This document shows, piece by piece, positions 1-34,292 of a stretch of DNA of 64,000 nt. The stretch's first letter is position 1, and each line of letters begins with the position of its first letter. The notes under the pieces were generated by a model. That model made no database searches. It was given only the letters and a program-made list of their open reading frames with translations, and was not told where the DNA came from. The position numbers and the translations under genes are program-made. Source of the stretch: a virus. The stretch lies in IMG/VR virus record IMGVR_UViG_3300033141_002563, positions 1-64,000 of that record; one strand, given 5' to 3'.

Positions 1-543
1 ACGCATCTGCGCTGCGCGGAGATCGCGGGGCAGAAGACCATCCTGCTCAAGCCGACCACGGACAGCCGGGCGTTGCAGCTCGTGAGCACGCACGATGGGC
101 TCACGAAGCCGGCGACCGAGGTGGACCCCACCGAGGCGCTCTCTCCGACTGCGCTCGCGAAGTACGACGTCATCGGCATCGACGAGGGGCAGTTCCTCGA
201 CGGGATGTGGATCGACGTCATCGAAGACCTCGCCGACGGTGGTACCGAGGTCATCGTCGCCTGTCTCAATCAGGACTTCCGTGGTAACCCCTTCGGTATC
301 GCACCGCACTTGATGGCGATTGCGGACCGCATCGAAGCGCTTCGCGCGGTGTGCGTGGACTGCGGGAAGAAGGACAGCGCGACGCGCAGCTATCGCACGT
401 CCGAGGGTGATGATCAGGTAGAGGTCGGTGGCTCGGAGCGCTACATTGCGTTGTGCCGTCCGTGTTGGGTGGACAGGTGGGCAGAGCGACAGCGGGATGG
501 CGAGGCCGCCCCGCGCGCGACACAAGCTCAGGCGGCTGTGTAG
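1..543 (+). CDS. tdk: Thymidine kinase, C-terminal part (start outside window)
   Basis: Type II thymidine kinase, which phosphorylates thymidine to dTMP with ATP and so feeds the phage dNTP pool in the cytoplasm. The frame is open from base 1, so the N-terminus with the P-loop lies upstream. Visible landmarks are the Walker-B-like DEGQF segment with the catalytic Glu, the stretch ACLNQDFRGNPFG that matches the substrate lasso region of this family, and a zinc-ribbon pair CVDCG and CRPCW. The Ala/Gln-rich tail ends 31 bases before the next gene's ATG. The family call is firm; whether the enzyme is intact cannot be judged because the ATP-binding loop is not in view. Confidence 0.93.
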   Translation, partial: THLRCAEIAGQKTILLKPTTDSRALQLVSTHDGLTKPATEVDPTEALSPTALAKYDVIGIDEGQFLDGMWIDVIEDLADGGTEVIVACLNQDFRGNPFGIAPHLMAIADRIEALRAVCVDCGKKDSATRSYRTSEGDDQVEVGGSERYIALCRPCWVDRWAERQRDGEAAPRATQAQAAV

Positions 544-574
544 AATAGGCGTACCGCTTGAGAAGGAGCACACG

Positions 575-3500
575 ATGGTCAACCTCGCGCAGTACCTCGC
601 CGGCAGTGTATCGCTCGAAGAGCTTGAGGAGTCGCTGCCCGTCAGCGGGGCCGGCGGCTTGATGCTGCCGAAGCCGATGACGACGCGGCACGAGAGGCTG
701 CAGCTCGCATGGCAGGATTTCAGCACGAAGCTGGAAGCCCTGTGGCTCGACGTGATGGAGACGTCCGAAGAGCTGTACATCGATGCCGCGCAGACCATCG
801 ACGAGCTGCGCAACGTCGGCTTTCAGAACCCGCGGCACGGGGTGCCAATCTTCAAGCGCTTGCAGCAGAAGGTCGCTGCGTACGCGATGAAGCCGAGCGA
901 AGAGCAGAATGCCATCCAGGTGATTGCCGCACGTCTCGGAGCGCTGAACGCTGAGCTTCTCTACATCTGCGACGAGCACGACCCGCAGATGCCGAAGCCT
1001 CCGGAGCTGCCCGCCCGCGACATGAAGACGTGGCAGAAGGATAGCGGCGTGGAGCGCTTCCCCGGCGAGCTGGGGATGTCTGATCCCGGCATCGAGGGGA
1101 TGGAACCGGAGCCCGACGACGAGGATTTGCCTCAGGATCAGCAGGTTATCTCGGCGGAGCCCGGCGAGGAGCCCGAGGGGGAGATGCCGCCCGAAGGCGA
1201 AGAGGTGCCGGGCGAGGAGCCCGACGAAGACGAGGTGCCCTACGATGCCGCCGAAGAGGAACCACAGGATGCGGAGGGAGAGCTTGCAGGAGAGGATGGA
1301 GAGGATCCGCTGGCTCCTGGGGACGAAGAGGAAGGCGCCCCGGTCGAGCCTGGTATGGAGGATCCTGACGGTGGTGAGGTGGCTCCTGAGGATGGAGAAG
1401 AGGAAGCCCCCGACGTCGAACCCGGCGAAGCACCCGACGAGGTTCCCGGAACAGAGCCCGAGCTTGCGCCTGAGCCCGGAACAGAGCCCGAGCCCGGAGT
1501 AGAGCCCGACGCCGAAGCTCCGCCCGGGGCCGAGCCCGGCGAAGAGGAGCCCGAGGCACCTCCCGAGAAGGCGGCACCGGATGGTGAGGAGCCCGAGGCG
1601 CCTCCTGAGAAGCTGAAGCCGGAGGATGGAGCGCCCGAGCCACCGTCGGGCATGGAGCCCGAGGGGATGGAGCCCGAGGGGATGCCGAAGGAGAAGCCCG
1701 AGGTACCGCCGAAGGAGAAGCCCGAGGTACCGCCGAAGGAGAAGGGCGACGAGAAGGGCGAGAAGCCCGACATAGCTCAGGTCGCGGACAAGGAACGGGG
1801 AGACGCGGACGACGCGAAGCAGGACTTCGCCGACGCGGCAGCGAAGACCGACGACGAGGAAGGGGAAGCAGAGGAGGTCGAGGGCGACCCGAAGGCTTCC
1901 CCGGAGAAGAAGGCGGACGAGAAGGACGACGTCGAGCGCGCGAAGGGTGAGGAGGTCGACGCTGCGGCGGAGGTCGAGGGTGAGGACGACGAAGCCGACT
2001 CGGCGGAGCGGTCGCTCGGGCAACAGCCGCGTGACTGGGACACCGACCGCCTGAAGAAAGCCTACGATCAGGTCAAGTCGGACCTCGGGGGCAAGGTGCC
2101 CGCGGACGAGATGCCGAAAACACCTGAGGAGCTGATCCAGCTCATCGCGCCCGACGACGGCGACGCCGGCATCATGCAGCAGGGAGCCGACGCGGACACG
2201 GGGAAGGTTGACCCGCAGCTCGCGCAGTACCTGCAGCGCGAGATCAAGAAGGGCACGCTTGGGAAGGAGCCCGACGAGGATGAGCAGCTCGGGGCTCCGC
2301 CGTCGAAGCCGAAGTCGAAGATGCCCCCGCCTGGGAAAGACATCAAGGCGGCGATGAAGATCAAGGCGAAGCGCAAGCCGGGTCGCCGGATGGAGGGGGA
2401 GCCGAAGCTCGGGGAGACGGTGAAGGCAGCTGACCCCGCGAAGGTGGATCAGGACGAGCTGGCGATGGGCACGAAGGAGGAGATGGAGCACACGACCGAC
2501 GTGAAGGTCGCGGAGCGCATCGCCTTGGAGCACCTCGCTGAAGACCCGAGCTACTACAGCAAGCTCAAGAAGGCCGGACTTGCGGAGTTCTACCGCTCTC
2601 CCGACTACTTCGGGCCGAAGGCGGAGCAGTACCTCGACGAAGTAGCGCTCGACGAGCGGGGCCTGCCCGGGGCCATGAAGGCAAAGAAGGTGCTCAAGCG
2701 TCTGCTCAAAGCCGGATGGGAGATCATTCGACAGACCGGATCGCACAAGATCCTGAAGAAGGCCACGAAGACCATCATCTTCGCGTTTCATTCAGGCGTC
2801 GAGATCGGCCGCCGGATGCTCGCGAAGCTGCAGAAGCAGACCGGCGTGAAGTTCATGGAGAACTACGCGGCGGTTGACGCTCTGCGCTACGCCATCGTCG
2901 AAGAGCAGGGTGACGTGGAGGCGTCTTTCCAGCTGGCAGCGGAGACGATCGCGGAAGCCGTGCGGCGCTACACTGACGCGAGTGATGTTCGTGGGGAGTT
3001 GGGCGTGGTTGCTCCCGGGCGTCCACCGTCCATCAACGTGTTCGCGGAGTGGCGGAGCAACGGCCGCCCGAGCGACAGCTTCGGCTTCACGCGTGTCATC
3101 CCGATCGAGGGGGCGGTGTACTTCGCGAACGCAGACGGCGTGGTCAGCGAGTCGTGGGATATCGACGAACACATCACGAACACGGAACTCGCGAACCGCG
3201 TATATGGCGCTATGAGCGAGGTTTACGACGTCTGCCCGACGCGCGTGACAGAGGATGAGAGGGTCGTACCGGCGCTCTACCGCGTCATGGAGCGAGAGCA
3301 GCGCGGAGAGAGCATCTCCGGCTACGCCTACGGTGGACTCCTTAACAGCCTTCGTTCGTCGCTGAGCATCGCAGAGGGTGTGGCTACCGCGCCTCAGCGC
3401 ATCCACGTGACGATGGCAGGCCCGCGCCGCTACTACTTCGAGTGGACGGTCCCGGCCCCCAAGAAGATCCCCGCTGTTGTGGGGACACCGGACGGCATGC

Positions 3501-4243
3501 TTGCTGAGATGCAGGACGTGCTTGGCGCTGGAAAGCTGGCGCTCAACGAGGACGCGACGGTCACGCTCGGCGGCGCGAGGGTGGGCCTCCTGAAGCATCG
3601 CCCGATGACGCCGGAGACCGTGCGGCAGGTCGCGATGTTCAAGACGCCGACCCGGGCTCAGTTCGCTGCGGGGAAGCTCGGAAGCGACTGGACTCCGGTT
3701 CACGTCTACGTTGACGACGGGTCGGAGGGCTGGGTCGTCGGCGACAAGCGGAAGGACGCGCTGTCGAAGATCGGAGCCCGGCGTATGGGTGTTGAGGAGG
3801 GGGTCATCGGGCTCTCTGCAATAGGTGGTGCCGCGTCTACGGTGTGGTGCTCACCGCCGATCAGCATCTCTCCGTCAGAGGGCTCCGTGCTGATCGGCGA
3901 CTCCGTGCTCGACAGGGACTGCTCCGATAGGGCGTTTGCCGATATCATCTCGACGCTCTCCGAGCAGCAGGACGACACGGCACACGGCTACCTGTTCGAG
4001 GACGGCCCCACCGTCCAGGTGGATCGCAAGACGCGCCTACGTGTGCAGGAGACGGGTGTGGGCGATGTGCTGGTGTCGCCGCTCGACGAGGACGAGGACG
4101 AGAGGATCCGGGAGGCGAAGGCGGCGAAGCAGAAGCTCGACCCGTACGACGTCATTCGTGCAATCGCGAACATGGAGTTCATCCCGCGTGGGCCGTTTGC
4201 GGTCCTGAGGGTGAAGCGTCACGGGACGGGACAAGGGAAGTAG
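575..4243 (+). CDS. Large acidic composite protein with DUF5661-like motif and HicA-like domain
   Basis: A 1222-residue protein of unknown overall role. The start is ATG at 575, nine bases after an AGAAGGAG ribosome binding site; the frame is open further upstream but that part overlaps the thymidine kinase. Residues 1-150 are helical; about 150-520 is a low-complexity stretch of Glu, Pro, Gly and Asp with repeats such as EPEGMEPEGMPKEKPEVPP. Residues about 631-670 (MGTKEEMEHT...DPSYYSKLKKAGL) match, as I recall it, the DUF5661 motif seen in many phage proteins. Residues 701-757 (VLKRLLKAGWEIIRQTGSHK...) read as a HicA mRNA-interferase fold with the catalytic GSH histidine at 724. The last 460 residues are unrecognised. 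LxE-type sites sit at E614 (PKLGE/T) and E694 (VALDE/R), flanking the DUF5661-like part. No HicB-like antitoxin is seen next to it. Confidence 0.82.
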   Translation: MVNLAQYLAGSVSLEELEESLPVSGAGGLMLPKPMTTRHERLQLAWQDFSTKLEALWLDVMETSEELYIDAAQTIDELRNVGFQNPRHGVPIFKRLQQKVAAYAMKPSEEQNAIQVIAARLGALNAELLYICDEHDPQMPKPPELPARDMKTWQKDSGVERFPGELGMSDPGIEGMEPEPDDEDLPQDQQVISAEPGEEPEGEMPPEGEEVPGEEPDEDEVPYDAAEEEPQDAEGELAGEDGEDPLAPGDEEEGAPVEPGMEDPDGGEVAPEDGEEEAPDVEPGEAPDEVPGTEPELAPEPGTEPEPGVEPDAEAPPGAEPGEEEPEAPPEKAAPDGEEPEAPPEKLKPEDGAPEPPSGMEPEGMEPEGMPKEKPEVPPKEKPEVPPKEKGDEKGEKPDIAQVADKERGDADDAKQDFADAAAKTDDEEGEAEEVEGDPKASPEKKADEKDDVERAKGEEVDAAAEVEGEDDEADSAERSLGQQPRDWDTDRLKKAYDQVKSDLGGKVPADEMPKTPEELIQLIAPDDGDAGIMQQGADADTGKVDPQLAQYLQREIKKGTLGKEPDEDEQLGAPPSKPKSKMPPPGKDIKAAMKIKAKRKPGRRMEGEPKLGETVKAADPAKVDQDELAMGTKEEMEHTTDVKVAERIALEHLAEDPSYYSKLKKAGLAEFYRSPDYFGPKAEQYLDEVALDERGLPGAMKAKKVLKRLLKAGWEIIRQTGSHKILKKATKTIIFAFHSGVEIGRRMLAKLQKQTGVKFMENYAAVDALRYAIVEEQGDVEASFQLAAETIAEAVRRYTDASDVRGELGVVAPGRPPSINVFAEWRSNGRPSDSFGFTRVIPIEGAVYFANADGVVSESWDIDEHITNTELANRVYGAMSEVYDVCPTRVTEDERVVPALYRVMEREQRGESISGYAYGGLLNSLRSSLSIAEGVATAPQRIHVTMAGPRRYYFEWTVPAPKKIPAVVGTPDGMLAEMQDVLGAGKLALNEDATVTLGGARVGLLKHRPMTPETVRQVAMFKTPTRAQFAAGKLGSDWTPVHVYVDDGSEGWVVGDKRKDALSKIGARRMGVEEGVIGLSAIGGAASTVWCSPPISISPSEGSVLIGDSVLDRDCSDRAFADIISTLSEQQDDTAHGYLFEDGPTVQVDRKTRLRVQETGVGDVLVSPLDEDEDERIREAKAAKQKLDPYDVIRAIANMEFIPRGPFAVLRVKRHGTGQGK

Positions 4244-7654: not shown

Positions 7655-10141
7655 ATGCGACCGGAGCATCTCGACGTCATTCTTGAGCGTGTCGGTGCGG
7701 CGATGCAGGGCAACGCTGTAGCCGAAGCGCAGCAGAGCGTCGATGAGGTAGACAGAGGCTTCGAGTCGTTTGAGGAAGGCACGCGGGCGGAGCAGTTTCG
7801 CTGCAAAGCGCTGTTTTCTGGGGGTGGGTCTGGCTCTGGTAAGGGTTTTGTTCTGGACAACACCGTCCGCGGCCTCGGGCTTCGTATCCTCAACTCCGAT
7901 GACGTCCTTGAGGCGCTTGCGGCAAGCCCGGTCACGCGTGAGCGCTTGCAGAAGAAGCGCGACGCGAAGGGTGCAGAGGGCGACATCACCGGGAAAGGCT
8001 ACGGTCGTCGTGGCGCCGTGATCGACCTCAAGACCGAGCTGATGGGCAAGTTCGTCCAGAAGGAGCTGCGCCCCTACTCGAAGCGTCGGTACAAGAACAA
8101 AGCGCATATGACGATGGACCGCCGCAACGGTCTCGTCTTCGACGTGACCGGTGCCAACCTCGGGACCATCCAGAAGTTCTATAAGGAGCTTACTGAGCGG
8201 GGTTACGACTGCGGGATGATCTTCGTCAGTGTGAAGATTCCGACTGCGCAGACGCGTGACCTCAAGCGTAAGCGTTCGCTCGGCCCGGAAGAGGTCGAGA
8301 AAGTTCACATCAAGGCTAACGCCAACGTCTCGAAGCTGGCTCAGCTGTTCGGTGCGGAGAATTTTCGCATCGTGGTGAACGAGAATGTCAGGGGTACGAA
8401 GCGGCCGACGGCGAAGAAGGACCGCTCCCTTCCCGAGGCAATCCGTAGCGGCGCGACGATGATGCGTGCTGTCAAAGGGCGGAAAGCGCAGCAGCAGGCT
8501 ACGGTCAGCTCCGACCAGTGGACCATCAACCAGCAGCTCATACTGCAGAAGTTCAAGGACGCTCGTAGTTGGGCGACGAAGTGGCTCAAGAGGCCCATCC
8601 GGAACCCCGTCGGCAAGGCGTACCTTGCGAGCCTGAAGGAGGCGGTTGCCGCGGACGCGGGGCTCGTCGAGAAGGCGGAGATGTACGTCGTCTACCGCAA
8701 GGACGGCACCGGCTTCATCTACGAGCAGATGTTCTACGACCAGCTGACTGCTCGGGCGTTCGCACGTCGCATCAAGGGCTCCGTCATCATGGACCCGGCG
8801 AAGGTGCCCGACAGGATCGGCAACCTCTCGCAGCTCGGCGGGAGCGTGGTCGAGGGGGCGGGGGTGCTCAACGAGTGGGGGTATCGGCAGCAGCGTCGCA
8901 CGAAGACCCTCAGCCGTCCGGCCGACGAGATCGCGAAGGCTCTCTCGTTTGAGGCCGCTGTCGTGTTGTTCGGGAGCACGCAGTTCAAGTCTCCCAAGTA
9001 CAAGCTCGCGCAGGAAAGCTTTCGTCTACGCATCTCGAAGGCTGAGTGGGAGAAGGGTCGTAAGGAGCTGACGGGTCACGGCATAGCCAACAAGGCGGGG
9101 AACGTCACCTACAAGCTCGCAACTCCGGTGCGCACCGAGTTGGAGAAGATCGTCGGGGCGCGGACGGACTTCCGGCTTGGGATGGCGCTGACGAAGCACT
9201 ACAACCGCTCGAAGGCGTTCATGGGCGACCCGTGGGATAATGCCGAGAAGCGTCGGTTCGACCTGAGGGACGGTCACTGGTACAGCACCGGCGACTACAA
9301 GCCCCTCCCGGAGGCGGCCGACATCGACGAGCGCGGCTACAAGGCCAACCCGAAGGCATACGCGCAGGCGATGGCGAAGGCCGGAGCGAAGCCTTCCCGT
9401 GTTTGGTTGACCGTCGCAAACCTCGTGCAGTCGGCGGCGAAGAAGATGGGGAACGCTGTTCGCAACATGTCAGACGAGAAGGAGCGTGCCGCGTCGCTCG
9501 GACCCCTGAACACGATTCTGGACCTGACCGATGTTTCTATGGCTACTCAGGCATCGCGCTCGCATCGTGCTGAGACGGTCAAGCAGGTAGCTGCAGCGCG
9601 GGACGCAGCGCAGCGTAGTGGTTCACCGCTCTACTCCGCGCTCAACGACCTCTATCGCAAGATCCGCGCGACGACGTACAACGAGTCGGCCGAAGACCTC
9701 GACGAGTTCTTCTGGCGGAAGCGCGACAAGGGCAAGTTCGCGGCGAAGGGGCAGGGTCAGGAGCCCGCGCCACGCAAGAAGGTACGCTCGAACATCGCCA
9801 GCGACGACTACGCGAAGGCGCTTGCTCAGGCGAAGTCCGACCCGCGCTACAAGGACGAGCTGAAGCACAAGCTCGCGAAGGCGGAGAGCGCGAACGACCG
9901 CACCGGCGTCGAGCTGACGGAGCCGGCGGGACTCGTCAAGCCCGGTCAGGAAGGCGAGTGGAAGCGCGCGAAGGCGGCAGCTTCCCAGCAGTACCCGGGC
10001 ATGGAGGCGAAGGACAAGGACCGCTTCTACGCCGTCACGAACACGATCTTCGGATCGATGACCGGGCGGAGGAAAGAGGAGAGCATGACAGAGCGCACTG
10101 CCAACCTCCTCACCGAGCGGATGACCGGCATCCGGGGGTAG
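7655..10141 (+). CDS. Composite protein with zeta-toxin/polynucleotide-kinase-like P-loop domain
   Basis: An 828-residue protein, ATG 7655 after TAGGGGGC. Residues about 45-235 form a P-loop kinase domain: Walker A GGGSGSGKGF with K63, then LGLRILNSDDVLEAL, FDVTGAN, and a C-terminal HIKANANVSKLAQLFG stretch, the order found in zeta-toxin and polynucleotide-kinase-like enzymes that phosphorylate small molecules or nucleic acids. The middle 300 residues are unrecognised. From about residue 555 (IDERGYKANPKAYAQAM) to about 680 (YSALNDLYRKIRATTYNES) the sequence is related to a segment of the prohead protease fusion at 28674. An LxE-type site (DIDE/R) precedes this shared segment in both proteins. 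It ends four bases before the 2164-residue composite protein, so the two are probably co-expressed. Substrate and role are unknown; head cargo is my inference. Confidence 0.75.
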   Translation: MRPEHLDVILERVGAAMQGNAVAEAQQSVDEVDRGFESFEEGTRAEQFRCKALFSGGGSGSGKGFVLDNTVRGLGLRILNSDDVLEALAASPVTRERLQKKRDAKGAEGDITGKGYGRRGAVIDLKTELMGKFVQKELRPYSKRRYKNKAHMTMDRRNGLVFDVTGANLGTIQKFYKELTERGYDCGMIFVSVKIPTAQTRDLKRKRSLGPEEVEKVHIKANANVSKLAQLFGAENFRIVVNENVRGTKRPTAKKDRSLPEAIRSGATMMRAVKGRKAQQQATVSSDQWTINQQLILQKFKDARSWATKWLKRPIRNPVGKAYLASLKEAVAADAGLVEKAEMYVVYRKDGTGFIYEQMFYDQLTARAFARRIKGSVIMDPAKVPDRIGNLSQLGGSVVEGAGVLNEWGYRQQRRTKTLSRPADEIAKALSFEAAVVLFGSTQFKSPKYKLAQESFRLRISKAEWEKGRKELTGHGIANKAGNVTYKLATPVRTELEKIVGARTDFRLGMALTKHYNRSKAFMGDPWDNAEKRRFDLRDGHWYSTGDYKPLPEAADIDERGYKANPKAYAQAMAKAGAKPSRVWLTVANLVQSAAKKMGNAVRNMSDEKERAASLGPLNTILDLTDVSMATQASRSHRAETVKQVAAARDAAQRSGSPLYSALNDLYRKIRATTYNESAEDLDEFFWRKRDKGKFAAKGQGQEPAPRKKVRSNIASDDYAKALAQAKSDPRYKDELKHKLAKAESANDRTGVELTEPAGLVKPGQEGEWKRAKAAASQQYPGMEAKDKDRFYAVTNTIFGSMTGRRKEESMTERTANLLTERMTGIRG

Positions 10142-10145
10142 TGCG

Positions 10146-13100
10146 ATGCCCGAGCTGACCGAACGACAGGAAGTTCTCGACGACGCCGCGATCAAGCGGA
10201 TGCGGAAGGACTACCTGATGCTGATGCGGAACATCGACCGCGTCACGTCTCCGCGGGCGCACGCGGTCCTGAAGAAAGGCGCGAAGACCTTCGCTCAGCA
10301 CCTCGTAGAACTCATCGTCGGTGACTGGTTCGACACGGCCGACGCGCCTATCAAGACGATCCTCCTGAAGCACAACGTCCCGGAGCGGGAAGCGAAGGCG
10401 GTGCAGCAGCTTGCTCAGAAAGCGCTGTACATGCTGGAACACGAGCTGACGATGATCCCGGATTGGCAGGATTGGGGGGAGGCGTCGCGCAAGGGGGCGA
10501 AAGCGTCAGACTCAGTCCGATGGCGGAAGCGGGTCGATAAGCACGCTCGTCAGGTCTGGAAGGACTTGGACTACGTCTCCAAGTACGTCAAGCGCGTCAG
10601 CGGGTCCACGCCGGTCGTCGGGAAGGCAGAGACGAGCTTCGACGTCGCGGGCATCCCGGTTCGCGTCACGGGGACGCTGAAGTACCCGGATGCGTTCCGT
10701 ACGGGGATGAAGGACGCGGTTCAGCGGATCAAGAAGGTACTCCCGTGGGCGATGCGGTACCGCCTCCCGGTACAGATCATCGACATGGACATGAGGGCAG
10801 ACGGCACGTACAACCGTGCAACGAAGCTCATCCGTATGTCGCACTGGTTGCACGAACCGCGCCGCGTGTCTCAGGTGTACGTTCACGAGATGGGGCATCA
10901 CCTCTGGCAGCAGCTCGGGCAGGACGCGAAGGACTACTACCGCGCGGCCGGGAACGCGAACGCGAAGAAGCTGAGCGTCCGCAAGCTGCTCGATGAGTGG
11001 CCCGAGGGCGCTCTCGGTCTGCTCGGGTACGCGAGGCAGCTTGAGAACTCTGATCCCATCCTCTCCGTGCAGCTGCAGTCGATCGAGATGGGTTACGCGT
11101 CGCGCTCTGCGTCGGACAAGACAAGCCTATTGACGCTTCTCGATCGTGGTGTAGAGCACATTACGGTCGACGGGCACCCGGTGACGTACTACGCCGCAAA
11201 GAACTCGGAAGAGAACTTCTGCGAGGTACTCGGGGCGCTCATCTCGTTCGGTCCGCGCACCGTTCACCCGCTCGTCAAGGCGCTCATGAAGCACGTACTC
11301 GGCTCCCGCTTGAAGCTCTCGGAGGCGACGATGGACACAACCGCGCCCACGAAGGCTCCGTGGCATTCCTGCACGGATTGCGACTACGGTATTCCCAAGT
11401 ACGTGGGCCGCTACCCCCAACATTGCCCGAACTGCGGATGCAAGCTCGGGGGCCAGTCGGGCTACCCGAGCATGAAGCGGCGCCTCCCGACGCGCACCGC
11501 GGACCCGGGGCCGGGCATTCCCCTTGAGGAGCGCGCAGCCTTCGAGGCGTGCATGCACGACGTAGCGCGTGGGGTGAGCTTCCCCGGCGTCACTTACACG
11601 CTCACGGAGGGCGGCGTTGCGGCGTTCCGCTACGCGCCCGACCACCTCGCGATCACGCCGACGGTCATCCGCGTCTCGCTCGACGAGGTCAGCATCCCGG
11701 CAGTCGAGGCGGAGGTCATCAAGCTCGCCGAGACGGTCGACACGCTGATGGTTGATAGCGCCATCGATGAGGGCACGCTGTCAGAGAGAAGGCAGGCCGT
11801 ACTGTCGACGAAGCACTTCGACAAGATGCGCACCGAGTGGAAGCGTATGTTGAAGCCACTCTTCACGAAGGGGCGCGGTACGCTTGAGACCGAGGCGGCG
11901 GACTCCGTCTACGCGGGAAAGTTCGAGGAGTTCGTGCGGGCGTCGTTCGAGTTTCTGGCGCACGAAGTTCCGGTTCTCCCTTCGTTGATATGGTGGTACG
12001 AAAAAGCCGACAACATCACGGGGCCGGCGAAGGCGATAGCGGATAAGTTCGCGGGCGCTTACCTGTGGTCCGAGACGTTCTACAAGCGCAAGTCTGTTCG
12101 TCCCGCGGAGGACTACAAGAAGTTCTACGGAGGCAAGGCGGAGAAGTTCCTGGAGATGTTCGTGAAGCTCCGCAGGGCTGTCGAACACTCGGGGTTTACG
12201 CTCGACAGCTGTAGGCTTATGGGAAAGGCTTCGACCCGCAACATCGATCTCGACATCAAGTACAACAACGTCTTTCGTGAGCACCTTTGGAAACTGTGGC
12301 AGGAACGCGACCCGAGCAGCTTCGATAAGAACGTGAAGAACTTCTTCGCCGGCCCGCACGACGAATCTGCACGTGAGCCGATGGCGGAGTACGCGAAGAC
12401 GCTACCTCGCGAGCTGACCGACTTGAAGTACCAGGACGTTGAGACGAGGCACGTAGACCTTGAGCACGCGGGGAAAGCGGTTCTCGCGAAGCTCGACAAG
12501 GTTCTCAAGTTCTTGAAGGGTGGCGTTGCGACTGCGAGCTATCCCGAGTACATGATGAAGCAGATCGCTACGCAGAACCTCGGTCGTGAGAAAGTGCGTG
12601 GTGAGAAGCTTGCGGTAACGGCGGACGTCGTGCGCGGGAACGACAACGTCGCCGGCTTCCGTGTCGAGAACGACATAGGGCTTCCGCGTCACGCTTGGGA
12701 GAGCTTTGCGAAGGTAGTAGCTCTCGTAGCACGTGGGTTGAAGCGTAAGGGTCTCGGCTTCCTCATCAAGCGCGTGGTCGTTCACGTCAAACCAAAAACC
12801 ATGCGCACGTTCACCGTCAAGGATACTGGAGAGAAGAGCCTGTATGGTGGCTCCTACAACCTGTCTCCCGGGTACGACATGTTGGATCTCAAGTATGGAA
12901 TGAGAACAGATCCGAGTTCAAAGCAGAAGCTCAGTAAGAGCACGCCGACGGCGAAGGGCAAGGGCGTCGTCGTCATGAACTACGACACCGCCAGCATACC
13001 GTCTGAGCAGGACGTGGCGCGCATCTTCACACACGAGATCGGGCATCACTACTACTTCGCTTTCCTGCCGCCGAAGGCTCGCGCCGCCTACCGGCACTTC

Positions 13101-16100
13101 TTTGGTTTGGCAACCAGCTTCCCGTCAGCCTACGCGAAGAGCCAGGCGATCGAGGACTTCGCCGAAATCTTCACGGCATGGGTGCTGAAGGGCACTGGGC
13201 TGATGAAGACCGGCGAGTACAAGCCGCTCGACGACGACATGATGCAACGCTTCCGCGGTGCGATTCGTCTCGATCCGGCCGCGAAGGGCGTCAAGCTCGC
13301 CGAAACGGTCGGCACGCTGATGGTGGACGACGTCACCGATGAGGACATGCTGCTCGACCCGCGCACGAAGCTGCCGGTCCCGTCGGCGGAGCCGCTTGCA
13401 GAGAGGGCGGCGCTGTCGACCACGTTCTTCAACAAGGTGCGGACCCTGTGGAAGCAGGAGCTGAAGCCGCTGCTCATGAAGGGGCACGGCACGACGCACA
13501 CCGCGGACGAAGATGACGCGGCGGCATCCGGCTTGAAGTCGTTCTCGGCGACGGCGTTTGCGTTTCTCACGCATGAGGCTCCGATCCTGCCTACGCTTTC
13601 ATGGTGGTACGACGACTACACAAGCAAGGCTGCGCTGACGGCCATCCATGACAAGTTCGCCGGGGAGAACCTGTGGTACACCAAGATGCGTGGCGATGCG
13701 GACAAGTTCTACGCGGATAAGGCGAAGCGCTTCACCGAGCTATTCCAGCAGTTCCGCGAGGCGCTCAACAGCGGGTTGACGCAGCTGCAGTATGCGAAGG
13801 GCTCGACGCGTCCGCAGGTACTCGCTTACTTCGCGAAGCAGGCGATGAGCGACAACGAGCAGCGCAAGAAGGCATGGGCGTTTTGGAAGCGGGCGCATCC
13901 GAAGCGCTTCGCGCGAGAGACTGCCGTCTTGGACGGACCGATGGATGAGACGCAGGATCATCTGTTCATCGACTACATGATCGAGATGTTCAGGGAGCAG
14001 ACACGCTCTGCACTCGACGACTCCGATCGCCGGCACACAGAGCTGAAGACCGCGGGCGACGTCATCCTCAGCTCGATCGACGTGCTCTTCAAGTTCCTGA
14101 AGGACGGCATCGCTACGTCCGGCTATCACACGGGCGCGCAGGCGGAGATCGCGCAGAAGTTCCTGGGCCGGGACGTGAAGAAGGGCGAGAAGCTCGCGGT
14201 TACGAGCGACGTCGTGCGTGGGAACGACAACGTCGCCGGCTTCCGTGTCGAGAACGACGCCGGTTTGGAGAAGTCCACTTGGGAGGGCTTCTCCAAGGTG
14301 TTGGCTCTCATCGCTCGCGGGCTGAAGCGCAGAGGGCTGGGCTTCTTGGTGAAGCGCGCGACCGTGACCGTTCGCCCGCGCAAGGGGAAGACGGTCAACG
14401 TGATGGCGACCGGCGATGACTCGGCTCAGGGGGGCTCCTACAAGTTTGGCGGGCTTGACGCTCCTTCGGCAACGGCTCCTGCGAAGGCGCGGCCGTACCG
14501 TCCGAGCAGCCCGACGACTACGGGGAAGGGCGCCATCTCGCTGTTCGTTGACGAGGTGTACCGGATGCCCGCGCGCGACATAGCGGTCGTCTTCACGCAT
14601 GAGCTTGGGCACCACTACTACTTCGCCTTCCTGCCGCCGAAGTCGCGTGAGGCGTACAAGGTCTTCTTCCAGCGTGCGACGAGCTTCCCGACCGCGTACG
14701 CGAAGAACAACGCAGGCGAGGACTTCGCCGAAATCTTCACAGCGCTGGTGCTGAAGGGCACCGGATTGATGAAGACGGGTCACTACAAGCCGCTCGACAA
14801 CGACATGATGCAGCGCTTTAAGGCTGCCATCGACATGGACCCGAAGGCGAAGAGCGTCAAGCTGGGCGAGTCCTTCGAGGAAAGTCTCTGGGAGCGCGTG
14901 AAGGATTCGCTTGGGATGCCGCGCTCCAAGATGCCGCAGATTCGCTCGGATCTCGTGCCGGAGTTCCTGGAGTTCCTGGGCGGGAACGACGTCAAGGTCA
15001 CGCGCAGGACGATGCCGGCAAACCGTCTCAAGCCGACGCAGAACGAGCTGAACAAGTCGAAGCTCGACTACATGGTGACGAAGGGGGTGAAGCAGCTTCT
15101 CAAGCCGATGATCGTGTCGTCTGACCACTACGTCCTTGACGGACACCATCGGCTTGGCGCTCTGCGGGTGAAGAATCCGAAGGCAGAGGTGCCGGTCATC
15201 GTGGTCGACCTGCACATCATGCGGCTGCTTCAGGTCGCGCACAAGTTCGCGAAGGTCGGGTACAAGAAGCTTAGCGAGGCGATCGGCGGACCGAACCCGG
15301 TTCCGACGGTGAACCCGAAGGCGGACTCGGCGGACGTCCCGGTTGCTCCGACGGACAGCACCGGCGTCGGCTCGTCGTTCAACGCAGCGCTTGGCGTGAA
15401 CGAAGCGGAAGGCATCTTGCAGAGGCTCAAGAGCAAGACGAAGTTCGTGCTCAAGGTGCTCCGGAACGCGAAGATCGGCTTCGCGAGTGTGACGCCGACG
15501 GCTCGCGCCGACAACCCGGCCGACAAACCGCTGCAGCTCAACTTCTTCAGCCCGCAGATGAAGCCGAACCCGATCCCGCACATCTACGTCGCGAACGCGG
15601 CCGACGCTTTCCGTCAGCTGCTCGGGCTGGGCATCCGGGAGCCGCAGCTCGCCGTCCACATGGTGACGGAAGCGGCGACGATGGCGTTCCTTCGTGACGC
15701 GTGGCTGCTGGAGAGCAAGCGTACGAAGTACAAGTCGGCCATCGCGGTCGTCGTGAAGAACCGCGTGAAGGGGCCGGCGGAAGTGCTCATCGGCAAGGCG
15801 TCGGACACCGGAGACGACCGCACCGGTACGTGGTGTCTCCCTGGCGGGGGCATCTCCCCGGACGACGATGACGAGCACGACGCCGCCGCGCGCGAGGCGT
15901 GGGAAGAGATGGGTGTCACGGCAACGCCCACCGGCAAGAGCGTCGAGATGCCGGGGCGGCCGGGCATCATCTTCTGCTACCTCGATTACGTCGAAGGCGA
16001 CCCGAAACCGAACGCGGAGTTCACGGCGGCGAAATGGCTGCCGGTCGCGGACGCGTGGAAGACGAAGGGGCTCTACAGCACGACGGAGCCCCTCATTCAG

Positions 16101-16640
16101 CGCCTCAGCGGCGAGATGAAGGTGACGGAAGCTTTCCCGACACGTAAGAGCAAGCCGGCGAACACGGGCGGCCGGTCGCTCGTCGGCGGGGAGCCGGCTG
16201 CGACGGAAAAGAAGCCCGGCAACAGCTTCGAGACGGACGACAAGAAGGACAACGCCTTCGACCCCGCGGACCGCGACAAGACGGGGACCGTATCGCAGGA
16301 CGACGCGCGTGCGGAGAAGAAGCTCGACATGCCGGATCAGGCGAGCGACGAGCTTGACCCGGCGGAGAGCGACGAGATGCAACAGGACGGACAGCAGCCC
16401 GGCGAGGAAGGACCGCCGCAGCCGGGGCAGCCGGCGACTCCGACCGGGCCGAAGAGCATCATGTTGCGCTTCCCTGACATGTCGATGGCGTCTGACGCTG
16501 ACCAGTGGTTCAAGTCAATGAACGTCGATACGCAGCTTGACGGTATCGAACTCACGGCCACAGCTAAGGATGCGACCGATCTGGAGGTCATTTCTCGTAC
16601 TGCGACAGCGTACGGGTTGGAGCTTTCGGACGCGGCGTAG
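10146..16640 (+). CDS. Giant composite protein: three zinc metallopeptidase modules, zinc ribbon, ParB-like and Nudix domains
   Basis: A 2164-residue protein. Module 1 has HEMGHH with H247, E248, H251 and a downstream ENFCEV glutamate. A zinc ribbon (SCTDCDY... HCPNCGCK) follows near residue 405. Units A and B are two tandem copies of about 522 residues, with HEIGHH at H963 and HELGHH at H1485, each followed by EDFAEIF supplying the likely third zinc ligand. A ParB-like domain has VLDGHHRLGALR near residue 1665. A Nudix box runs from G1902 to REAWEEMGV; its first Glu is Asp. The acidic end (1996-2164) is linker-like. Motifs at the module borders are KLSE393/A, KLAE529/T, KLAE1053/T, KLGE1575/S, KLSE1711/A, VNE1753/A and VTE1995/A, resembling prohead-protease sites. 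The architecture recalls the polyvalent proteins described for phages and conjugative elements. Domains are seen directly; packaging and cleavage are inferred. Confidence 0.86.
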   Translation: MPELTERQEVLDDAAIKRMRKDYLMLMRNIDRVTSPRAHAVLKKGAKTFAQHLVELIVGDWFDTADAPIKTILLKHNVPEREAKAVQQLAQKALYMLEHELTMIPDWQDWGEASRKGAKASDSVRWRKRVDKHARQVWKDLDYVSKYVKRVSGSTPVVGKAETSFDVAGIPVRVTGTLKYPDAFRTGMKDAVQRIKKVLPWAMRYRLPVQIIDMDMRADGTYNRATKLIRMSHWLHEPRRVSQVYVHEMGHHLWQQLGQDAKDYYRAAGNANAKKLSVRKLLDEWPEGALGLLGYARQLENSDPILSVQLQSIEMGYASRSASDKTSLLTLLDRGVEHITVDGHPVTYYAAKNSEENFCEVLGALISFGPRTVHPLVKALMKHVLGSRLKLSEATMDTTAPTKAPWHSCTDCDYGIPKYVGRYPQHCPNCGCKLGGQSGYPSMKRRLPTRTADPGPGIPLEERAAFEACMHDVARGVSFPGVTYTLTEGGVAAFRYAPDHLAITPTVIRVSLDEVSIPAVEAEVIKLAETVDTLMVDSAIDEGTLSERRQAVLSTKHFDKMRTEWKRMLKPLFTKGRGTLETEAADSVYAGKFEEFVRASFEFLAHEVPVLPSLIWWYEKADNITGPAKAIADKFAGAYLWSETFYKRKSVRPAEDYKKFYGGKAEKFLEMFVKLRRAVEHSGFTLDSCRLMGKASTRNIDLDIKYNNVFREHLWKLWQERDPSSFDKNVKNFFAGPHDESAREPMAEYAKTLPRELTDLKYQDVETRHVDLEHAGKAVLAKLDKVLKFLKGGVATASYPEYMMKQIATQNLGREKVRGEKLAVTADVVRGNDNVAGFRVENDIGLPRHAWESFAKVVALVARGLKRKGLGFLIKRVVVHVKPKTMRTFTVKDTGEKSLYGGSYNLSPGYDMLDLKYGMRTDPSSKQKLSKSTPTAKGKGVVVMNYDTASIPSEQDVARIFTHEIGHHYYFAFLPPKARAAYRHFFGLATSFPSAYAKSQAIEDFAEIFTAWVLKGTGLMKTGEYKPLDDDMMQRFRGAIRLDPAAKGVKLAETVGTLMVDDVTDEDMLLDPRTKLPVPSAEPLAERAALSTTFFNKVRTLWKQELKPLLMKGHGTTHTADEDDAAASGLKSFSATAFAFLTHEAPILPTLSWWYDDYTSKAALTAIHDKFAGENLWYTKMRGDADKFYADKAKRFTELFQQFREALNSGLTQLQYAKGSTRPQVLAYFAKQAMSDNEQRKKAWAFWKRAHPKRFARETAVLDGPMDETQDHLFIDYMIEMFREQTRSALDDSDRRHTELKTAGDVILSSIDVLFKFLKDGIATSGYHTGAQAEIAQKFLGRDVKKGEKLAVTSDVVRGNDNVAGFRVENDAGLEKSTWEGFSKVLALIARGLKRRGLGFLVKRATVTVRPRKGKTVNVMATGDDSAQGGSYKFGGLDAPSATAPAKARPYRPSSPTTTGKGAISLFVDEVYRMPARDIAVVFTHELGHHYYFAFLPPKSREAYKVFFQRATSFPTAYAKNNAGEDFAEIFTALVLKGTGLMKTGHYKPLDNDMMQRFKAAIDMDPKAKSVKLGESFEESLWERVKDSLGMPRSKMPQIRSDLVPEFLEFLGGNDVKVTRRTMPANRLKPTQNELNKSKLDYMVTKGVKQLLKPMIVSSDHYVLDGHHRLGALRVKNPKAEVPVIVVDLHIMRLLQVAHKFAKVGYKKLSEAIGGPNPVPTVNPKADSADVPVAPTDSTGVGSSFNAALGVNEAEGILQRLKSKTKFVLKVLRNAKIGFASVTPTARADNPADKPLQLNFFSPQMKPNPIPHIYVANAADAFRQLLGLGIREPQLAVHMVTEAATMAFLRDAWLLESKRTKYKSAIAVVVKNRVKGPAEVLIGKASDTGDDRTGTWCLPGGGISPDDDDEHDAAAREAWEEMGVTATPTGKSVEMPGRPGIIFCYLDYVEGDPKPNAEFTAAKWLPVADAWKTKGLYSTTEPLIQRLSGEMKVTEAFPTRKSKPANTGGRSLVGGEPAATEKKPGNSFETDDKKDNAFDPADRDKTGTVSQDDARAEKKLDMPDQASDELDPAESDEMQQDGQQPGEEGPPQPGQPATPTGPKSIMLRFPDMSMASDADQWFKSMNVDTQLDGIELTATAKDATDLEVISRTATAYGLELSDAA

Positions 16641-28222: not shown

Positions 28223-28674
28223 TCGGCCGACGCGCGGCACGACCGGCGACTGCGTTCATCGACCCGAAGGCGAAGAGCCAAGGTCGCCGACCGCATCAGA
28301 GGCATGAAGGGGTGTATCTTTTCAAGCGTGCTGCGCACGACACGACCATCGACATGTACGAGCCTCCGACGGCGGACGGCTTTGTCGAGAGCTACGTGCT
28401 GGAGCACTTCGACGCGGAGCTGCTTCTGGCGATCGTGCTCAAGCTGACAGAGCAAGAGATCATCGACTTGATGGACCGCTTGTACAACTTCCGCGCGGTC
28501 ACGTTCAACACGCGGACACGGGCTATCGTCGTGCGACGTGACACGTGGGCGCGGCCCCACAACGAGGACTTGCTCGCTCTGCCTCCGGTTGACGTGTCGG
28601 AGCGTCTCGATCGGTCGCTTACCGGACTTGTGAGTCACATGCAGGCGCTCGCGCCACAGAAGGAGACAGCGTGA
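28219..28674 (+). CDS. Hypothetical protein upstream of prohead protease
   Basis: A 151-residue protein, ATG 28219 in an ATGA overlap. The first 30 residues are basic and disordered-looking; the rest is helical (VLEHFDAELLLAIVLKLTEQ). Its stop overlaps the ATG of the protease. By position it could match the small head genes next to the T4 protease, but I see no sequence link. Confidence 0.6.
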   Translation: MIGRRAARPATAFIDPKAKSQGRRPHQRHEGVYLFKRAAHDTTIDMYEPPTADGFVESYVLEHFDAELLLAIVLKLTEQEIIDLMDRLYNFRAVTFNTRTRAIVVRRDTWARPHNEDLLALPPVDVSERLDRSLTGLVSHMQALAPQKETA

Positions 28675-31298
28675 TGCAGGTGCTCGACGGTCGCAACCTC
28701 TACGAGAACGGGACGAGCCTCGGGCTGCTTCAGCTCGAAGAGGGTCAGCGCTCCAACAAGATGATCATCATCGAGCGCTTCTCGGGCGAGTGGTGCGATC
28801 TCAAGCAGGTCGAGCTGACGGAGATGGACCGGACGAACGCGTCGCAGCTCTTCGAGGCCGGCGGAAACAAGGCCCCTCGCATCCTCATGGCGATGGAGGG
28901 GCGTTTTCAGGCGTCGGACATGAAGAACGCGAACGGGCGGATCTACCCCGGGACCATCTGGGAGAAGATCATTCCGAACGCCGGCACGTCGCCGGTACTC
29001 GGCCGCATCGCTCGCGGGGAGATGCTCGGCGAGGTCGATCACCCCGGCGACGGGCAGACGCTGCTCAAGCGCGTCGGGTGCATGACGACGAACATCCTGC
29101 GCGAAGGCAGCGACGTCCGCGGGCGGATGATCGTGTTCGACACCGCGGTCGGCCGGGATGTGAAGGCCATCGTTGAGGGCGGCGGACGTGTTGGCGTCAG
29201 CTCGCGGGGACAGGGGAGCGTCGTCCGGCTCGAAGGTACGGACGTCGTGCAGGACGATTACCAGCTCGAAACGTGGGATGTCGTCCACAATCCGAGCACG
29301 CCGGGAGCCTACCCGGACATCACGATACAGGAGAGCGCGGCGCCGTCGCAGCCGCAACAGGAGGAGCGGATGGGCATGCTGGCGGACCTCCGGGAGCGGT
29401 TCGAGAGGCTGAAGAAGCATATCGAGGGGCCGGATGCTGACCTCACGGAGAGCGTCTTCACGATCCTCAACGACGAAGCGAAGGGGATGGCGACGGAGCT
29501 GACGGAGGGCAAGTTCGGGGGCTCGCCCGCGGAGGTCGCCGCCATCGCTGCCGACGTGCAGTATTTCCTCAACCGCATCGGGCAGCTGCGCGCGAACCCG
29601 ATCAAGGGCATCCCGCTCGGCGAGGAGGACGACCCGCTGCCGACGGCCGCCGCGACGGGCGGAACGGTGCAGCTCGCGGAGAGAGACTACAAGGGCGACC
29701 CGAAGGCGTACGCGAAGGCGATGGGAAAGGCGCAGAAGAGGGCGGGCATCAAGACGCTGAGCACCGACGTGAGCACCGGGCCATTCTCGGACGCTCGGTC
29801 GAACGCTATTTGGGACGCGCGGATGGAACTGGAGGATGTGCTTGGTCTATGGCACCCGATCACGAAGAAACTCAGGGTGATCTACGACGCCTTGAAGATG
29901 CAAGGCGGTTCGTCCTCGAAGAAGGAAAAGGCGCTGAAGGATTTGGCGCGACTCCGTGATAGTGCACAGCGTGCTGATGGCGACGAGGGTAAGGTTTACT
30001 CTGCTCTCCGTGATGCCTACCGCCGGGCTCGCGCGTCGATGTACAACGAGGCTCGCATGGGGGCTCACGCGGGGCAGAACGAGCCGGGGCGGGACTGGGA
30101 TGACGCAGGTGACGTCGAGGACGTCCGCGCCCGCTTCAAGGGCAAGCCGAAGCGTACGCCCGGTCGCCACAAGGCGGACAAGGCGCTCGTGAAGGGCGCA
30201 GCGAAGCAGCTTGCTCGGTACAACGAGAACGACGACGACGATGACGATACGGAAGAGGAGTGCAACGAGACTTTCCAGCGTGCAACGACCGCGGGTGAGA
30301 CGGTCGAGGTTCTGGAGAACGTCGCCGGCCTGCGCGAGAAGGCGCTGACCGTGCCGATGACCCGCTTCGTTCATGAGGCGCGCAAGGCGTACCGGGACGC
30401 GGCGCAGGTCGATGGCATGATCCATCGGCACGAGCTGGACGGCATCTCTTCCTTCGTGCGGGACACCTACGAAGCGGTCGAGAAGGACGAGATCACGGAG
30501 ACGATGGAGACGCCCGCCGGACGGCGGCGCTTGGAGATCATCGTTCCCAACGCGGGCAAGCTCGACGAGAACACGAAGCAGCTGGTGGCCCCCATCGGCG
30601 GACTCACGCAGACGGCGCCGGGCCGCTACCACACCTCGGTGCCCATCGACAAGGTCAGCGACGTGCTGGAGAGCCTTGCGCGTGGGGGCATGTCTCTCGT
30701 GTACACCGAGTCGACCGAGGCTTTCGACGACGCGGCGGAGCGCTTTCAGCCGCTGCTCGACAGGCAGATGAGCCTCACGCAGGCAGCGCTCACCGAAGCA
30801 GCGACGGGTAAGGCGTGGGTCACGGAGATGTCCGCGATCATCGCCAACGTGAAGCAGGCGATGCAGATGCTCACGGAGAAGGCTCGCGAGCGCGGTGCGG
30901 CGCTGCAGGAGACGGAGAAGAAGGTCAGCGCAGCTACGGCTCTCATCGAAGCGTTCGCTCGTGAGTTCGGCGTTGAGCGGGTTCGCGGTGCGGTGCAGGC
31001 GGTCGCTCAGCTTCATCCGAGCGCCAACGCGCTGCCGGAGAAGCTCTCGGAGGCCCGTAGCGTCGAGGACTGTGTCAGGCTGACACGTGGGGAGGTGTAC
31101 CTGGAGAACCTGCCCATCGTCGAGCGGAACGAGACGCGCATCACGGAAGCGGTGCAGACGTCTCAGCGCGCGAGACAGAAGCGCATCGAGGAGAGCGCGA
31201 AGAAGCCCGGAGCGGGCAGCTTCAAGCGCAGCATCGTCGAGACGACCGAGCAGGTTGTCGGAGCGATGGACAAGAAGTACGGCCGGAAGGATCGGTAA
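28674..31298 (+). CDS. Prohead core protease (T4 gp21-type) fused to scaffold-like region
   Basis: An 874-residue protein. ATG 28674 is eight bases after AAGGAG; GTG 28671 is an alternative. Residues 1-215 are the serine protease of capsid maturation: NANGRIYP at 85, EVDHPGDG with catalytic H123, GVSSRGQG with the catalytic Ser at 176-177, then LETWDVVHNPSTPGAY, all in the order of the gp21/herpesvirus-assemblin-like family. TIQE220/S is a likely self-cleavage site right after the domain. Residues 337-500 contain the YKGDPKAYAKAM segment shared with the protein at 7655, preceded by QLAE336/R. The Glu/Lys-rich, coiled-coil-like remainder resembles a scaffold, with RITE825/A near the end. T4 codes protease and scaffold as separate genes, so this is a large fusion. 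The major capsid gene follows. Confidence 0.9.
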   Translation: MQVLDGRNLYENGTSLGLLQLEEGQRSNKMIIIERFSGEWCDLKQVELTEMDRTNASQLFEAGGNKAPRILMAMEGRFQASDMKNANGRIYPGTIWEKIIPNAGTSPVLGRIARGEMLGEVDHPGDGQTLLKRVGCMTTNILREGSDVRGRMIVFDTAVGRDVKAIVEGGGRVGVSSRGQGSVVRLEGTDVVQDDYQLETWDVVHNPSTPGAYPDITIQESAAPSQPQQEERMGMLADLRERFERLKKHIEGPDADLTESVFTILNDEAKGMATELTEGKFGGSPAEVAAIAADVQYFLNRIGQLRANPIKGIPLGEEDDPLPTAAATGGTVQLAERDYKGDPKAYAKAMGKAQKRAGIKTLSTDVSTGPFSDARSNAIWDARMELEDVLGLWHPITKKLRVIYDALKMQGGSSSKKEKALKDLARLRDSAQRADGDEGKVYSALRDAYRRARASMYNEARMGAHAGQNEPGRDWDDAGDVEDVRARFKGKPKRTPGRHKADKALVKGAAKQLARYNENDDDDDDTEEECNETFQRATTAGETVEVLENVAGLREKALTVPMTRFVHEARKAYRDAAQVDGMIHRHELDGISSFVRDTYEAVEKDEITETMETPAGRRRLEIIVPNAGKLDENTKQLVAPIGGLTQTAPGRYHTSVPIDKVSDVLESLARGGMSLVYTESTEAFDDAAERFQPLLDRQMSLTQAALTEAATGKAWVTEMSAIIANVKQAMQMLTEKARERGAALQETEKKVSAATALIEAFAREFGVERVRGAVQAVAQLHPSANALPEKLSEARSVEDCVRLTRGEVYLENLPIVERNETRITEAVQTSQRARQKRIEESAKKPGAGSFKRSIVETTEQVVGAMDKKYGRKDR

Positions 31299-33992: not shown

Positions 33993-34001
33993 GAGCTTGT
34001 G

Positions 34002-34292
34002 ATGAGCGTCGCCAAAGACTACGAAATGTACCTTCAGGGTAAGGATGGCGACCGTCCGATGAAGGAGTCAACATCCGTGGAGAGCGCGCCCGACCGGCAG
34101 GTTCAGCTCGCAGAAGCACTCGTCGAGCATTTCACGCATTTCGACGAGGCGCGCAAGCCGAAGCCGAAGAAGAAGAAGCCGTTCGCGAAGTGCATGGAGT
34201 GCGGTCGCGGCTTTGCGTCTGTGCGGGCGGCGGAGCGGGCGATGTCTGTAGGTTGTCCGGGCTGCGGTGGGTCTGACATCGACATGGCGTAG
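34002..34292 (+). CDS. Small zinc-finger protein
   Basis: A 96-residue protein; ATG 34002 is preferred to GTG 33999 for its spacing from AGGAGC. The middle DRQVQLAEALVEHFTHFDEA is related to a segment of the preceding protein, then a Lys-rich linker and KCMECGRGF...GCPGCGG, a four-cysteine zinc ribbon. It looks like a cut-down relative of the gene before it. Function unknown. Confidence 0.62.
   Translation: MSVAKDYEMYLQGKDGDRPMKESTSVESAPDRQVQLAEALVEHFTHFDEARKPKPKKKKPFAKCMECGRGFASVRAAERAMSVGCPGCGGSDIDMA

Follow-up and report, generated by a model that had tools for sequence, protein, structure and literature searches.

The stretch analysed here (the window) comprises 64,000 nucleotides of the viral record IMGVR_UViG_3300033141_002563 (positions 1 to 64,000) and harbours, at 10146..16640 on the forward strand, a single intact open reading frame (ORF) of 2164 codons. 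Its product is a candidate cargo polyprotein in which three zincin metallopeptidases, a zinc-ribbon-like piece, a ParB/sulfiredoxin-like domain and a Nudix hydrolase follow one another in one chain, while a short motif ending in glutamate recurs at the borders. The window also encodes a prohead protease of the T4 gp21 type and the major capsid protein.

All parts of the chain are given here on the forward strand, with a slash behind the glutamate of each putative site. Module 1 (residues 1-393; 10146..11324) starts with MPELTE, is a zincin metallopeptidase with the motif HEMGHH, and is closed by the junction KLSE393/A (11313..11324). Region 2 (residues 394-529; 11325..11732) contains a zinc-ribbon-like CxxC...CxxC (from residue 409) and a small piece, both in a low-confidence model, and ends at KLAE529/T (11721..11732), with SLDE514/V lying 15 residues earlier. 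Modules 3 (residues 530-1053; 11733..13304) and 4 (residues 1054-1575; 13305..14870) are zincin metallopeptidases with HEIGHH and HELGHH, respectively, and form the two copies of a tandem duplication (524 and 522 residues, 50% identical) with ends at E529, E1053 and E1575; the latter two belong to the junctions KLAE1053/T (13293..13304) and KLGE1575/S (14859..14870). Module 5 (residues 1576-1711; 14871..15278) is the ParB/sulfiredoxin-like domain and is followed by KLSE1711/A (15267..15278), an ambiguous border that may be a protease site or a trait of the domain family. Region 6 (residues 1712-1842; 15279..15671) consists of a linker and an unassigned piece, with VNE1753/A inside it and VTE1842/A at its end, ahead of the Nudix hydrolase of module 7 (residues 1843-1995; 15672..16130; box REAWEEMG), which ends at VTE1995/A. 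Region 8 (residues 1996-2164; 16131..16640) is an acidic linker with a C-terminal piece. The three HExGHH motifs (residues 247, 963 and 1485) are all intact. An earlier sequence-only reading had listed the same module types and the looser sites at E1753 and E1995, both of which exist; VTE1842/A was missing from its list.

That reading had also placed the K-L-[AGS]-E sites between recognisable modules, and the borders bear this out from several sides. The AlphaFold2 confidence of module 1 stays near 90 as far as residue 390 and is below 50 from residue 394, and in module 5 the block means are at least 94 over approximately residues 1591-1700 and below 50 from 1712, the first helix beginning at 1576; the alignment rows behind both models run on for some 10-12 residues beyond the borders, and this may make the drops look steeper. 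Three further sites are the ends of the duplication, and modules 1 and 5 occur elsewhere as proteins of their own. Homologues of module 1 were aligned from 13 distinct loci of huge phages, where they are stand-alone (L024, L026, L029, L031 and L034) or otherwise fused; the zincin label is based on the HEMGHH motif and this alignment, as the fold search gave M1-type aminopeptidases as top PDB matches with none at E <0.001, and a search of 50,697 phage records gave a single match, from an uncultured phage. The best Foldseek matches of module 5 are the ParB N-domain and sulfiredoxin (best E 4.1e-3, probability 1.0, none <1e-3), and its domain is a stand-alone protein of 142-149 residues in Aeromonas T4-like phages and Ackermannviridae. 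The Nudix domain (residues 1862-1985; Pfam 3.1e-15) lies between VTE1842/A and VTE1995/A, its borders being drawn from Pfam only, with a low-confidence structure model there.

The full motif K-L-[AGS]-E-[TSA] occurs five times in the polyprotein (E393, E529, E1053, E1575 and E1711), exactly at the residues first proposed, against 0.04 expected and a maximum of two in 2000 shuffles of the 2164-residue protein; a chance origin is rejected for this form. All five junctions match the gp21 rule [L/I]-x-E. Among six-frame ORFs of at least 50 residues in the window, K-[LI]-[AGS]-E-[TSA] is found seven times, namely five times in the polyprotein, as KLGET at E663 of the ORF at 428-4243 and as KLSEA at E794 of the prohead protease. 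When the window and its extension are taken together (six-frame ORFs of at least 100 residues), the motif occurs seven times in the 4,310 residues of these three late proteins and not once in the 43,909 residues of other ORFs, a comparison in which the three proteins were picked after the motif had been seen.

The protease that might act on these sites is encoded at 28671..31298 (forward strand; 28674 had been given before). It carries a Peptidase_S77 domain (Pfam 8.2e-17), a candidate triad H124, S177 and D203 (assigned by position) and a long LxE-rich tail with KLSE794/A. Directly beside it (31344..32735, forward strand) lies the gene of a gp23-type major capsid protein (Pfam 1.3e-57) with the candidate maturation site SIDE55/T and also MLAE21/S. 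The T4 protease gp21 is described as cutting after L/I-x-E, and cutting after glutamate as the rule for gp21-like prohead proteases (PMC9026906). In this clade, [LIV]xE stands directly ahead of the shell domain in 10 of 10 capsid proteins (a list without G058, G048, G053, G057 and G059), always as [LIV]-[DN]-E, for example SIDE55/T in the window and SLDE/T in its relative G015. In an alignment, residue 70 of the capsid protein of the window falls opposite residue 96 of full-length T4 gp23, and the T4 propeptide has 65 residues (PMC9026906), so the window site lies near the T4 position and not exactly at it; SIDE55/T is the putative maturation cut. The tails of the S77 proteins hold [LI]xE above the shuffle mean in 11 of 11 genomes (p <0.05 in nine; for G058 the whole protein was counted), and the reversed motif is above shuffles at p <0.05 in one genome. 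Within the limits weighed below, [LIV]xE can therefore be regarded as the expected cut rule of the clade. A common preference at the residue before the glutamate (P2) in scaffold and polyprotein of one genome is not claimed, the scaffold tail of G015 having mostly small residues at P2 and its giant proteins acidic ones.

Two relatives, G015 (IMGVR_UViG_3300013233_000151) and G017 (IMGVR_UViG_3300037478_000708), carry S77 and gp23 genes as in the window and show a similar order, with two tandem giant proteins followed by the S77 gene and the capsid gene. Their giant proteins (1987, 2503, 2314 and 2619 residues) contain 17, 26, 20 and 25 copies of [LIVM][DE]E against 4.0, 5.0, 5.9 and 5.7 expected, respectively, and a 1654-residue ORF of G052, which is cut by the contig edge, contains 15 against 3.8. 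In G015, three proteins with 5,065 residues between them contain the longer form ES[LIVAT][DE]E 19 times, against a single copy in 40,215 residues of other ORFs; in G017, two proteins (4,933 residues) contain it 16 times, against three copies in 133,046 residues. Here too, the proteins were picked after the motif had been seen. Furthermore, the giant proteins of the two relatives show shuffling of modules, and 31 of 115 homologous segment ends lie within five residues of a site, against 11.1 plus or minus 3.3 for shifted sites (none of 2000 shifts reaches 31), the segment ends being taken from reciprocal high-scoring segment pairs that are not all independent. Judged from these alignments, the border preference of the sites is strong at breakpoints and not absolute. 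The expectation that homologues would keep the border sites thus holds for the architecture and fails for the exact letters, since G015 and G017 use [LIVM][DE]E instead of KLxE; their counterparts of the E1711 border are EQGE and EHGE. The comparison supports the view that relatives keep the design with a motif variant of their own.

Some further observations concern these relatives. Segments homologous to the P-loop kinase encoded at 7655..10141 of the window are embedded in giant proteins of both G015 and G017, and are found in separate ORFs of G050, G054 and G055. The 2503-residue protein of G015 gave nothing at E 1e-4 against the 50,697 phage records. A C-terminal targeting domain common to the group is not claimed: a hidden Markov model built from four relatives did not retrieve the polyprotein of the window at an E value of 0.05 or lower. 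In G051, a 1173-residue protein (L186:16224-19745) has nine [LIVM][DE]E against 2.9 and also nine [LI][ASTG]E against approximately three, and is perhaps a smaller polyprotein.

The relatives also bear on the question of what cuts the chain. It had been proposed that the window protein processes itself, and embedded zincins freeing the modules would accord with the three intact HExGHH motifs and with the published proposal of Iyer et al. for phage P1 DdrB (PMC5512222). Embedded zincins are a feature of the window protein and not of the giant proteins of G015, G017 and G052, which hold 15-26 sites each and no HExxH (the rest of these genomes was not searched for zincins). In addition, the same type of site occurs in the capsid and protease proteins, and cleavage after glutamate is the gp21-like protease rule (PMC9026906). 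Self-cutting is accordingly quite improbable. As the giant proteins of the three relatives lack HExxH and the junctions resemble capsid and scaffold sites, the S77 protease acting in trans is the favoured candidate for the cutting agent.

Neighbouring genes share some of these features. Only four bases upstream of the polyprotein ORF ends the gene of an 828-residue protein (7655..10141, forward strand) with a P-loop kinase (Zeta_toxin/AAA_33) and a segment common to the S77 protein (BLAST 2.5e-5 over 48 columns). In a MAFFT alignment only, the common segment extends upstream so as to start directly after LxE in both proteins, IDE559/RGYKANPKAYA of the kinase protein resembling LAE337/RDYKGDPKAYA. 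Further upstream, a Pro/Glu-rich ORF of 1271 residues (428..4243, forward strand) contains DUF5661 (residues 671-715) and a HicA toxin (residues 753-807), each preceded by an LxE-type site (KLGE663/T and ALDE743/R, respectively), and may be a second cargo polyprotein with a toxin. A DUF5661-like segment also lies within a gene of Vibrio phage vB_VpaM_VPs20 (hit H69) that is annotated as DUF2213, a name which we take to be prohead-protease-related; DUF5661 may be a head-associated domain. At 32838-34292, two adjoining small late proteins have in common the segment PDRQVQL[AI]E[AT]LV with an internal LxE, possibly a targeting or trimming signal. A tail sheath gene (52606-54804) and a baseplate hub/lysozyme-like gene (61664-62707) lie on the same strand as the polyprotein, and from its head genes and tail sheath the window belongs to a contractile-tailed phage of the T4 superfamily.

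Evidence from virions is available for a homologue of module 5 in phage LIMEstone1. There, a ParB-like protein of 149 residues is 35% identical to the module over 127 columns, and its gene, ORF101 (L204:7879-8328), is annotated 'confirmed structural protein'. The passage of the published virion table that is cited here gives, under the number 102, an unknown structural protein of 17.31 kDa with five unique peptides and 35.57% coverage, and has no entry 101 (PMC3296691). Since the computed mass of ORF101 is 17.3 kDa, 53 of its 149 residues amount to 35.57%, and ORF102 in the same record is just 243 bases long, we infer that the 102 of the table is ORF101. On this identification, a stand-alone homologue of module 5 is a virion protein confirmed by mass spectrometry. 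Homologues of the LIMEstone1 protein occur in many Ackermannviridae records. As for the window protein itself, its N-terminus MPELTE/R contains LTE at residues 4-6, a three-residue motif that may be due to chance and is possibly a short head-targeting propeptide; T4 Alt sheds an N-terminal propeptide of seven residues (PMC9026906). The genomic position of the polyprotein gene, this LTE and the LIMEstone1 homologue are indirect pointers to a possible packaging of the chain.

These observations also allow an assessment of whether the chain serves as core or scaffold filler, which would build the prohead core and then be broken up by S77 so as to be cleared from the head instead of being delivered. 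In T4, gp21 cuts the core proteins to pieces, which for the most part exit the head (PMC9026906), and the segment common to the kinase and S77 proteins would suit such a role. Nevertheless, filler would hardly keep the active-site motifs of zincins and a Nudix hydrolase or carry its KLxE sites between domains, and the module-5 homologue is found in LIMEstone1 virions, which makes this explanation highly improbable.

Several results weigh against the dicing of the chain by the prohead protease. Plain [LI]xE is not enriched in the polyprotein (18 against 14.7 expected, p 0.21), so that a chance origin is retained for this form, as the sequence-only reading had rightly cautioned; 6 of the 13 [LI]xE outside the KLxE sites lie deep within modules (E55, E237, E284, E542, E547 and E1086), and to spare these, a protease would have to recognise something beyond LxE. 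E529, E1053 and E1575 delimit one duplication, which reduces the five sites to about three independent cases. E1711 may be a family trait rather than a protease site: module-5 homologues often finish K-x-[ILV]-x-[E/D] at this position, by eye irrespective of whether S77 was found in the record, and the G015 and G017 counterparts depart from the motif. A tie between [LIV]xE at the C-terminal ParB border and S77 was considered and left unused, the association by eye being weak. Among the relatives, two of the five giant proteins also have more copies of the reversed motif E[DE][LIVM] than expected, though fewer than of the forward motif (11 against 4.8 expected in the 2503-residue protein, where the forward count is 26, and 10 against 5.6 in the 2619-residue protein, where it is 25). 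Of 52 sites that fall within alignments between genomes, 23 are retained as [LIVM][DE]E, and the conserved cores, which make up 54% of the proteins, contain 44 of 103 sites. In other genomes with related S77 and gp23, the long proteins of G050, G051, G054, G055 and G056 (2334-2658 residues) have four to nine sites against 2.9-3.9 (p 0.02-0.35) and no BLAST match to the polyproteins, so the design is not shared by the clade as a whole, the reading of G049-G058 being limited to stretches upstream of S77. Finally, the protease half of the S77 proteins is LxE-rich as well (10 of 10), so the LxE excess need not mark scaffold cuts only.

Control proteins add to these points. Motif excess was tested in 16 proteins, and values above shuffles at p <0.05 were obtained for [LI]xE in L030, L058, L076, L086 and L106, for [LIV]xE in L049, L058, L106 and L107, for [LV][DE]E in L032, L042 and L049, and for [KR]L[AGS]E in the window protein and L099. 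The last of these, a polyvalent ParB protein encoded by an ORF of 4480 residues, has four [KR]L[AGS]E against 0.9 (p 0.008); L106 has 40 [LI]xE against 27.1 (p 0.006) and L107 has 56 [LIV]xE against 39.7. Of the records of these three, the one searched for S77 was that of L106, with no match. S77 was found in 18 of the 50 records searched, which are part of 96 first listed and mostly longer contigs. Among multi-domain ParB proteins of other S77 genomes, L057 and L069 show no LxE excess, a further point against the dicing model; the ParB protein L076, likewise from an S77 genome, has an LxE excess (p 0.02). In a huge phage, a 1358-residue protein (L032:8021-12097) contains two module-1-family segments and seven [LV][DE]E against 2.1, with no S77 found in the record.

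An alternative explanation is that the window encodes an ordinary polyvalent protein, packaged and injected whole, in which the motifs are linkers that remained after genes fused or were duplicated. Polyvalent proteins typically contain zincin and ParB-like domains, and the N4 virion RNA polymerase is packaged unprocessed (PMC5512222); the ordinary level of plain LxE and the [KR]L[AGS]E excess of L099 fit as well. On the other hand, the polyvalent ParB proteins L099, L106 and L107 have no [LV][DE]E excess of the kind seen in the relatives, and the motif is similar to the sites found in capsid and scaffold proteins of this clade and clusters at the breakpoints of shuffled modules. An uncut protein is therefore considered unlikely, though less so than the other alternatives.

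Taken together, it is probable, by a modest margin of confidence, that the polyprotein is a head-cargo chain of enzymes diced by the S77 prohead protease, with confidence reduced by the results for L099, the reversed motif and the protease half. What is observed directly is the motif with its placement at borders, the presence of a protease gene and the comparable design of the relatives; from these we infer cutting, packaging, injection and action on the host. The enzyme modules (three zincin metallopeptidases, the zinc ribbon, the ParB/sulfiredoxin-like domain and the Nudix hydrolase) would be synthesised as a single chain, which would enter the prohead core together with the protease-scaffold protein. 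Once activated, the S77 protease would cut after the glutamate of K-L-[AGS]-E, as for the capsid protein and scaffold, and the freed modules (approximately 15-60 kDa) would remain in the head and go into the host with the DNA.

The individual parts of this scheme have known counterparts. Polyvalent proteins (Iyer et al. 2017, PMC5512222) combine unrelated domains, including zincin metallopeptidases and ParB, in one phage protein, and for them head packaging and injection were proposed and an analogy to RNA-virus polyproteins was drawn. The window protein conforms to the class in carrying several unrelated class-typical domains (zincin three times, ParB/sulfiredoxin-like and Nudix) and in lying near head genes, with S77 and gp23 encoded 12 kb further downstream on the same strand. 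In the passages cited, however, release is ascribed to embedded peptidases, whereas the junctions in the window fit a separate prohead protease. T4 Alt and the internal proteins IPI-III, as gp21 substrates, share the S77/gp21 protease family, the L/I-x-E rule and the trimming of cargo in the prohead, but are described as products of separate genes trimmed at their ends, not as modules of one chain with internal junctions (PMC9026906). The Dar system of P1 (DarA, DarB and DdrB) likewise comprises large head-packaged anti-restriction proteins, and an N-terminal piece of DarA is removed by the P1 protease Pro; as described, this is one terminal cut and not the release of several enzymes, in another phage lineage and by another protease (PMC9024508, PMC12810830). 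In phiKZ and SPN3US, many head proteins are cut after glutamate by a gp21-like protease and some are ejected into the host, though the sites reported for SPN3US in the passages cited remove propeptides and do not separate a string of enzymes (PMC10052503, PMC5694885, PMC9026906). A literature search, with bioRxiv and most subscription papers outside its scope, did not find a description of a tailed-phage enzyme polyprotein diced by a prohead protease. The parts are known and their combination appears to be new.

For the wider group, we tentatively suggest, with the chances roughly balanced, that T4-superfamily phages known from metagenomic contigs only carry their early enzymes as interchangeable beads in shuffled giant polyproteins, with junctions matched to the S77 protease of each phage, so that any module placed between two junctions would be packed, freed in the head and injected. 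If true, one targeting event per chain would provide equal copy numbers of many effectors, and the passage of very long multi-domain proteins through a narrow tail would be explained. The scheme would also provide a testable alternative to self-cutting for the polyvalent proteins of S77-encoding phages, a rule by which the head cargo of uncultured phages and its cut points could be predicted from sequence, and a possible route to loading several proteins into a T4-like head at a fixed ratio. A tailed phage would thus apply the polyprotein logic of RNA viruses to its injected effectors, with the head-assembly protease as the processor.

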